Assembly: GCF_024298825.1 (NCBI RefSeq)
Contig: NZ_CP101153.1
Coordinates: 2,356,001 to 2,420,000, forward strand
Length of the DNA stretch: 64,000 nt
Direction: 5' to 3'
Origin: Haloglomus salinum
GTDB lineage: Archaea; Halobacteriota; Halobacteria; Halobacteriales; Haloarculaceae
Below are positions 4,992 through 23,452 of this stretch, in pieces. Each line of letters opens with the position of its first letter. Position 1 is the first letter of the stretch. The notes under the pieces were generated by a model. That model made no database searches, had not been told where the DNA came from, and worked only from the letters and a program-made list of their open reading frames with translations. The position numbers were made by a program, and so were the translations under genes.

Positions 4992-5064
4992 GCCCGGATG
5001 GTGTAGTGGCCCATCATACGACCCTGTCACGGTCGTGACGCGGGTTCAAATCCCGCTCCGGGCG
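4992..5064 (+). tRNA. tRNA-Asp (GTC)
   Basis: This is a 73-base tRNA with an acceptor stem GCCCGGA/TCCGGGC and discriminator G. The anticodon stem CGACC/GGTCG encloses loop CTGTCAC, with anticodon GTC at 5026-5028. The T arm is CGGGTTCAAATCCCG. There is no intron and no encoded CCA. A PD-(D/E)XK nuclease-like gene starts 82 bases downstream on the same strand. Confidence 0.97.
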
Positions 5065-5146
5065 CTGTCCTTTCACTGATTACCTTCGAGCGCCCAGCTC
5101 CGAGACCGACCATAGATTCGTGTATCAACGGGCGGGGAGGTGCGGT

Positions 5147-5560
5147 ATGAGTGCGAAACAGGTCGGCGACGGCTCAGAAGCAGTCGTGCTCGCCGAACTC
5201 GTCGATCGCGGCTACTCCGTAGCGATTCCGTTCGGGACAACGACCCGTACGACCTGCTCGAACAGGACCGGCACCGAGTTGTACCGGCTCCAGGTCAAGA
5301 CGGGGTGGCTCGAACGCGGTCGAGTCCGGTTCAAGACCGGGTCGAAGACGACTCGTGACGGCGAACCCACGGTAGCCGACTACACCGACCAGGAAGTCGA
5401 CGCGTTCGCTGTCCGCTGTGAGGAGTTAGGAACCCTGTACTGGGTCCCGTTCGCGCAGGTCGGCTCGAAGAGCACGTATCTCCGAGTGGAGCCAGCCGAG
5501 ACCGACCACCCGAGCATCAACGACGCCGCAGAGTTCCGCTTCGACGAGAACCTCCCATAG
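5147..5560 (+). CDS. PD-(D/E)XK nuclease-like protein with frameshifted active-site segment
   Basis: This 137-residue protein belongs, by pattern, to the small group I-intron-associated PD-(D/E)XK endonuclease type (PF11645-like) and resembles the gene at 22666-23118. The C-terminal half is normal: LYRLQVKTGW (the Q-x-K part of the active site), then EVDAFAVRC and TLYWVPF. The preceding segment reads PFGTTTRTTCSNRTGTE. In the next frame the same DNA encodes DNDPYDLLEQD, the expected catalytic segment. One base is apparently missing at about 5235 and one C is extra at about 5269, so the frame is restored but the catalytic aspartate is lost. The start at ATG 5147 follows a GGAGGTG ribosome-binding site. 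The protein is probably catalytically inactive unless the assembly is wrong here. Confidence 0.75.
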   Translation: MSAKQVGDGSEAVVLAELVDRGYSVAIPFGTTTRTTCSNRTGTELYRLQVKTGWLERGRVRFKTGSKTTRDGEPTVADYTDQEVDAFAVRCEELGTLYWVPFAQVGSKSTYLRVEPAETDHPSINDAAEFRFDENLP

Positions 5561-5620
5561 GAGGACGGAGCGCGACTGACCGAGGGTGAGACCTCGTTTA
5601 CCAGGAGTGATGCCACGGCC

Positions 5621-22665: not shown

Positions 22666-23118
22666 CTACAGGTTGTCCAATCTTGCATCGATTAGATACT
22701 CCTCGTGCCAATTGATTCCGACCGATTGATTGTTCGCAGGAGGTGTCAGACGGATTTCCATCTTCCCCGCGGCTGCGTCTTCGACTGGAACCAGATATAC
22801 GTCGTCGACGACCGGGTTGTATACCGCGAATAAATCAGAATCCCCGTGGTATGCGCGGCGTTCGTACCCGCTAGCGGTCCTTCGGGTACTCACCGTCTCG
22901 AATTGGACTGTATCCGGACCACCGTAGGCCGTCTTGCACTGGAGTCGGTAGAACTCCCCATCCACCTCAATTGCGAGGTCGTATGGCTCGTTATCGTATT
23001 CAGGGACCAGGACCGGAACGTCTCTCACCACCAGTTCCGCCTTGATTATCGCCTCAGATGCTTGCCCGCGTTTCTGCGGTTCATCAAGCCGGTTGAATCG
23101 ATTAGTCTCATCGGACAT
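22666..23118 (-). CDS. Small PD-(D/E)XK nuclease (intron-endonuclease-like)
   Basis: This 150-residue protein contains an intact PD-(D/E)XK core: an N-terminal helix (KRGQASEAIIKAELVVR), then EYDNEPYDLAIEVDGE with the catalytic Asp and FYRLQCKTAYG (Q-x-K). DLFAVYNPVVDDVYLVP follows. This matches the group I-intron-associated PD-(D/E)XK endonuclease type. The gene is more AT-rich than its surroundings, which suggests acquisition. It begins 89 bases downstream of tRNA-Asn on the same strand. The gene at 5147-5560 is its frameshifted relative next to tRNA-Asp. Confidence 0.85.
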   Translation of the reverse strand: MSDETNRFNRLDEPQKRGQASEAIIKAELVVRDVPVLVPEYDNEPYDLAIEVDGEFYRLQCKTAYGGPDTVQFETVSTRRTASGYERRAYHGDSDLFAVYNPVVDDVYLVPVEDAAAGKMEIRLTPPANNQSVGINWHEEYLIDARLDNL

Positions 23119-23207
23119 ACGGGAAGTGGTTCCCGATGTCAGAAGAGATTATGTCCGGACAGGCAGACGGTGTTCGTCGCTGTGTAGATAGTTCGGAAGG
23201 AGAAGGA

Positions 23208-23311
23208 CGCCACCTCCAGGGCTCGAACCTGGGACCACCTCGTGTCTGCGGCCCGTGGGCAACCCCACGCACCTTAACAGCGAGGTGCTCTACCAACTGA
23301 GCTAAGGCGGC
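23208..23311 (-). tRNA. tRNA-Asn (GTT) with a 31-base intron
   Basis: Minus strand: acceptor GCCGCCT pairs with AGGTGGC (one G-T), discriminator G. The D arm is GCTCAGTTGGTAGAGC, the anticodon stem CCTCG/CGAGG, and the loop CTGTTA|A with anticodon GTT at 23276-23278. The T arm is CCAGGTTCGAGCCCTGG. An intron occupies about 23244-23274, between positions 37 and 38, the canonical archaeal site cut by the splicing endonuclease. The spliced tRNA is 73 bases. cca is divergent just upstream. Confidence 0.95.
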
Positions 23312-23452
23312 GCGCACTCCCCGATAGATTGGTCCGATAAAAACCGCTTTCGCTTCGCCGGCACCGTGTGGCTCGGCCGCACGATACCGTCCCCCACCGT
23401 CTCCGGCGGCGGGACCGCCACCCTTTCGACCGGACCCCGACAACCCCAGCGC

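Follow-up and report, generated by a model that had tools for sequence, protein, structure and literature searches.

A double frameshift in a tRNA-Asp-linked PDDEXK_5 gene of Haloglomus salinum: a probable decayed homing endonuclease whose relatives are associated with altered tRNA alleles

A nuclease gene of Haloglomus salinum lies just downstream of a tRNA-Asp gene, and its reading frame is open, with the catalytic segment replaced. This raises the question of how the active site was lost and why such a gene stands beside tRNA-Asp. In this study, we analysed the window, which is the whole stretch of 64,000 nucleotides (NZ_CP101153.1, positions 2,356,001 to 2,420,000) within a 4.19 Mb single-contig genome (G000). 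The features of the locus are as follows.

4992..5065, + strand: tRNA-Asp (GTC), with G-C at anticodon-stem pair 28-42 (window 5020, 5034); ARAGORN, allele compared across the taxonomic family
5076..5616, + strand: exchangeable cassette, unaligned between G000 and the sister species G001 and absent in G003; blastn and four-species alignment
5147..5560, + strand: nuclease gene of PF11645 (PDDEXK_5) and of the Asp1 subtype, catalytically dead as sequenced; Pfam and alignment of 20 members
5234..5236, + strand: first indel, a GGG run one G short of the family reading; sequence and alignment
5237..5269, + strand: 11 out-of-frame codons in place of DNDxYDL, which holds the catalytic Asp; sequence and alignment
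5268..5269, + strand: second indel, CC, one C above the family reading; sequence and alignment

The frame runs from stop to stop over 5039-5560, with a likely start ATG at 5147 and the stop codon at 5558-5560, giving 137 amino acids. As sequenced, the protein contains PFG-TTTRTTCSNRT-GTELYRLQVK. The original prediction stated that a nuclease linked to tRNA-Asp lacks one base after TTCGG and has one extra C 33 bases later, and that the shifted frame gives DNDPYDLLEQD followed by GTELYRLQVK. We found the linkage as described, and both indels, 33 bases apart, were evident in the sequence and in the family alignment. The shifted frame reads DNDPYDLLEQD at 5236-5268 and matches the consensus block. 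The alignment of 20 family members gave the consensus PFGDNDxYDLxVDx(n)LxRVQCKTGW, with no length change across the block. Exactly 11 consecutive codons of the window gene differ from it (TTTRTTCSNRT vs DNDxYDLxVDx), and the remainder fits, so the frame is otherwise intact as had been claimed. The catalytic Asp belongs to the YD of the motif, which aligns with YDL of PDB 2ost. Thr stands at this position in the window protein, in agreement with the predicted loss, and QVK is retained; the catalytic Asp and QxK are both present in nearly all intact relatives. Since the shifted frame restores all conserved residues of the block (D-N-D-x-Y-D-L) and the protein matches PF11645 with a Pfam E-value of 1.2e-34, a chance resemblance is not credible. 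The double shift had been proposed for comparison with close homologues, and they do not share it: no intact relative has it, and the copy in G001 carries different indels. Because the shift is not conserved among homologues, programmed frameshifting was rejected.

We next consider the family to which the gene belongs. The window protein and the Asp1 reference (L012) share 55% identity. Used as a query, it found no relatives in the scan of genome contigs and nothing in PDB by phmmer, and NCBIfam held no matching model; the family profile does match PDB 2ost (7.7e-11) over the catalytic block. We take 2ost to be I-Ssp6803I. I-Ssp6803I is encoded within a group I intron of tRNA-fMet, and it is presumably the endonuclease with specificity for the anticodon region of tRNA-fMet. 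Such an endonuclease is known from a title cited in PMC3984707, and I-Ssp6803I is included among the PD-(D/E)XK homing endonucleases (PMC3943268). The genes studied here resemble it in their Pfam assignment to PF11645 and profile match to 2ost, in the catalytic block YD...QxK, and in the link to a tRNA anticodon. Unlike it, they are free-standing beside tRNA genes that are uninterrupted or carry archaeal introns, and the resident tRNAs are altered. The window gene lies 81 bases 3' of an uninterrupted tRNA-Asp, as read from the gene calls, and also differs from I-Ssp6803I in lacking the catalytic Asp.

The site was compared among the genomes of four species of the genus. Haloglomus halophilum (G001), the sister species, is collinear with G000 at ~92.7% identity. 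By blastn, the flanks of the cassette are ~95% identical upstream and ~91% downstream, and the two tRNA-Asp-linked nucleases are of different types with ~42% amino acid identity. G002 has an intact gene of the G001 type. G003 has no gene, and the distance from the tRNA to the promoter motif of the next gene is ~140 bp, compared to 530-560 in occupied loci. These results demonstrate that one site in one genus is empty (G003) or occupied by Asp1 (G000) or Asp2 (G001, G002) between conserved flanks.

The original prediction offered decay, domestication or two nearby sequencing errors as explanations of the double shift. From the sequence comparisons, real decay of a selfish nuclease is most likely. 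If short homopolymers had instead been misread or misassembled at two nearby places, an intact gene would only look dead. The lesions do consist of a shortened G run and an extra C beside a C, and the shifted codons fit the family perfectly, which implies that the lesion is either very recent or not real. We regard errors as unlikely, yet a chance to be reckoned with. Frame changes between G000 and G001 were counted by DNA alignment over ~273 kb of coding alignment. They were seen in 16 ORFs one way and 17 the other, mostly at ORF ends, and at most ~7 over the 273 kb were internal when the alignment was read by eye. In contrast, the three PF11645 copies of G000 (~1.2 kb), two of which are frameshifted, hold 3 indels (p ~5e-6 by a rough hand-computed Poisson estimate). 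This is far above the rate of frame changes between the two genomes and favours real decay. The G001 copy also argues against errors, since, compared with the intact G002 copy, it is missing two single bases within these same catalytic codons; these indels sit on a different nuclease allele from that of the window. Under domestication, the protein would have been retained after losing its catalytic core, either to regulate by binding DNA or to shield against incoming copies. The restored frame of the window gene would suit this, as would other full-length or in-frame copies lacking the active site (G122, G174, G233). However, at least as many damaged copies carry stops or uncompensated shifts. 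The shifted block also still reads as intact codons, indicating a lesion too recent to reveal selection on the new sequence. We consider domestication very improbable.

Homing endonucleases are expected to become inactive when no unoccupied site is left (PMC3984707). In this study, we found that ~16 of 81 distinct Asp-linked copies were damaged. Stops or uncompensated shifts were found in G001, G220, G276, G350, G380, G394, and G328. The copies that were damaged and remained in frame were the window gene, G122 (D to G), G174 (K to E), G233, and G242. We cannot explain why the frame was kept in these few, and offer nothing beyond chance. The Asp2 remnants of G233 (L318) and G242 (L327) have in-frame internal deletions, and G233 lost residues ~16-69 including the active site.

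The change in the anticodon stem of the linked tRNA was missed by the original prediction, and we consider it more important than the frameshift itself. We read 116 tRNA-Asp loci in the taxonomic family, and the association was examined across species, one genome each, in 392 genomes of the order. In the taxonomic family, pair 28-42 was A-U in 10/10 Asp2 carriers, which represent six genera and three tRNA backbones. The A-U stem, CAACC/GGTTG, replaces CGACC/GGTCG. In the order, A-U was found in 64/68 Asp2 carriers (Fisher p 4e-34 in 392 genomes). After stratification by genus, p was 2.6e-12 overall and 8e-10 against non-carriers. Among the four remaining carriers, pair 29 was changed to G-C in G286 and G231, pairs 27 and 28 were changed in G234, and G302 had no adjacent tRNA-Asp. 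Wherever several tRNA-Asp copies of a genome were read, they had the same state at pair 28. Asp1 carriers were non-A-U (G-C) in 25/26 cases; in the one exception, G380, the copy is interrupted by an in-frame stop. Asp1-type genes occurred in two A-U genomes, G380 and G081, and both copies are broken (a stop in the former; D to G plus a split in the latter). In one genus that is mostly A-U (g28), the Asp1 genomes were G-C in 4/4 cases. The Asp1 association looks strong in the whole sample and gave p 0.02 against non-carriers alone, so the reciprocity of Asp1 and Asp2 is suggestive only. A-U was also present in 57/298 genomes without a recognised Asp1 or Asp2 nuclease. A search for remnants in A-U non-carriers gave one clear case, G242, and most of the others searched closely had none. 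A third tRNA-Asp-linked subtype (L027 type: L335, L338, L346, L347, L349, L357, L361) always occurred with the G-C allele, between two tRNA-Asp copies.

Other nuclease subtypes each pair with their own tRNA. The intact relative named in the original prediction is a second PF11645 gene in the window, and it adjoins an intron-bearing tRNA-Asn.

22666..23118, - strand: second PF11645 nuclease (Asn type, L003), open frame, motif intact; Pfam
23205..23312, - strand: tRNA-Asn (GTT) with a 31-nt intron, adjoining the Asn-type nuclease; ARAGORN with introns allowed, missed by the default scan

The tRNA-Asn was intron-bearing at 11/15 Asn-type genes, and four lacked the intron; overall, a tRNA-Asn intron was found in 19/142 genomes of the taxonomic family. 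Wherever a Lys-type gene had an adjacent tRNA-Lys(TTT), the tRNA carried an intron, which occurs in only ~8/142 genomes of the family. The third PDDEXK_5 gene of the Haloglomus salinum genome, L225 (G000:C1:1202090-1202644), sits upstream of an intron-bearing tRNA-Lys(TTT) and has a frameshift just past the catalytic QVK. In a small sample, Pro-type carriers mostly had an unusual tRNA-Pro arm, with one exception with the common arm (G118), and the CGGGC/GCCCG arm was found in about half of the non-carriers read. Five tRNA-Pro-linked proteins (L023, L026, L029, L031, L033) are tandem two-domain proteins without the catalytic Lys in domain 2 (LGVET in place of VQVKT, for example).

These findings suggest that the window gene is a decayed free-standing PD-(D/E)XK homing endonuclease of the PDDEXK_5, I-Ssp6803I family, whose intact relatives home into tRNA genes while the resident allele is resistant. 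We give this reading a probability of about 0.68. In cells with a sensitive allele, the intact protein would cut the corresponding tRNA gene within the anticodon arm. The break would then be repaired from the copy that carries the nuclease, and the resistant tRNA allele and the nuclease would be transferred together. The resident tRNA-Asp may be protected by the compensatory anticodon-stem pair in the Asp2 subtype, and probably tRNA-Pro likewise. An intron in the anticodon loop may protect the resident tRNA-Lys genes and many tRNA-Asn genes. After the site has been filled, the nuclease would come under relaxed selection and the gene would decay, the double frameshift of the window being one such lesion. 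In intronless homing, a free-standing endonuclease cuts the neighbouring gene in a rival allele (PMC3984707). The genes described here share with T4 SegF-type intronless homing a free-standing gene beside its presumed target, occupied and empty alleles, and a resident that is presumably uncut. They differ from it in the chromosomal archaeal locus, the PD-(D/E)XK nuclease, and the presumed tRNA-gene target, and resistance would come from compensatory stem pairs or introns. The LAGLIDADG endonucleases of Haloferax (PMC5867893) are also free-standing homing-endonuclease-like genes of haloarchaea, but they belong to an unrelated nuclease family and have no tRNA link. According to the Randau-Soll proposal, as cited in PMC4390854, disrupted tRNA genes protect against mobile elements. 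Our proposal agrees that introns shield the tRNA gene, whereas the gene would here be threatened by a specific, linked nuclease instead of an integrase, and base-pair changes would serve as well.

The association with tRNA alleles could also be explained without DNA homing. The enzyme might be an anticodon nuclease that cuts tRNA instead of DNA, with the carrier's own tRNA resistant. The altered pairs preserve the tRNA structure and all copies read per genome share the allele, as this would require. However, introns accompany the Lys copies and most of the Asn copies. Being absent from the mature tRNA, an intron could shield the gene only, which speaks for DNA as the target. Among relatives of solved structure, the nearest is a DNA homing endonuclease, and the gene keeps strictly to the locus of its matching tRNA. 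An anticodon nuclease therefore appears quite improbable. Equally improbable, in our judgment, is the absence of any functional link, with the tRNA allele hitch-hiking on DNA that arrives at a tRNA integration hot spot. Such an origin is consistent with tRNA genes being common integration sites and with A-U occurring without a recognised nuclease. On the other hand, both strands of the stem are changed and the rest of the tRNA keeps the sequence of its lineage (three backbones). Moreover, the same nuclease subtype is accompanied by different stem changes in three genomes from two other lineages. Homing into DNA remains our preferred reading.

Searches of the open-access literature turned up neither tRNA-linked PDDEXK_5 genes of haloarchaea nor the link to tRNA alleles; provisionally, both appear to be novel. 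PDDEXK_5 may further represent a broad class of free-standing homing endonucleases that target tRNA genes in archaea, bacteria, and phages and drive compensatory stem evolution and the spread of tRNA introns, with Asp1 and Asp2 as rivals that attack each other's resistant allele. This wider proposal is tentative, at somewhat less than even odds. If true, it would explain the repeated switching of an essential tRNA between two paired anticodon-stem states. It would also give a concrete selective reason for the long-debated, puzzling archaeal tRNA introns, and for hundreds of unannotated nucleases, the target could be predicted from the neighbouring tRNA gene. Among bacterial relatives, the fetched locus contained a tRNA gene in 21/23 cases, often within tens of bases. 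Among viral relatives, this was so in 50/75 cases, often directly adjoining, and part of this adjacency is expected from viral tRNA arrays. The viral PDDEXK_5 genes (L486-L560, IMG/VR) often lie directly between tRNA genes in such arrays.
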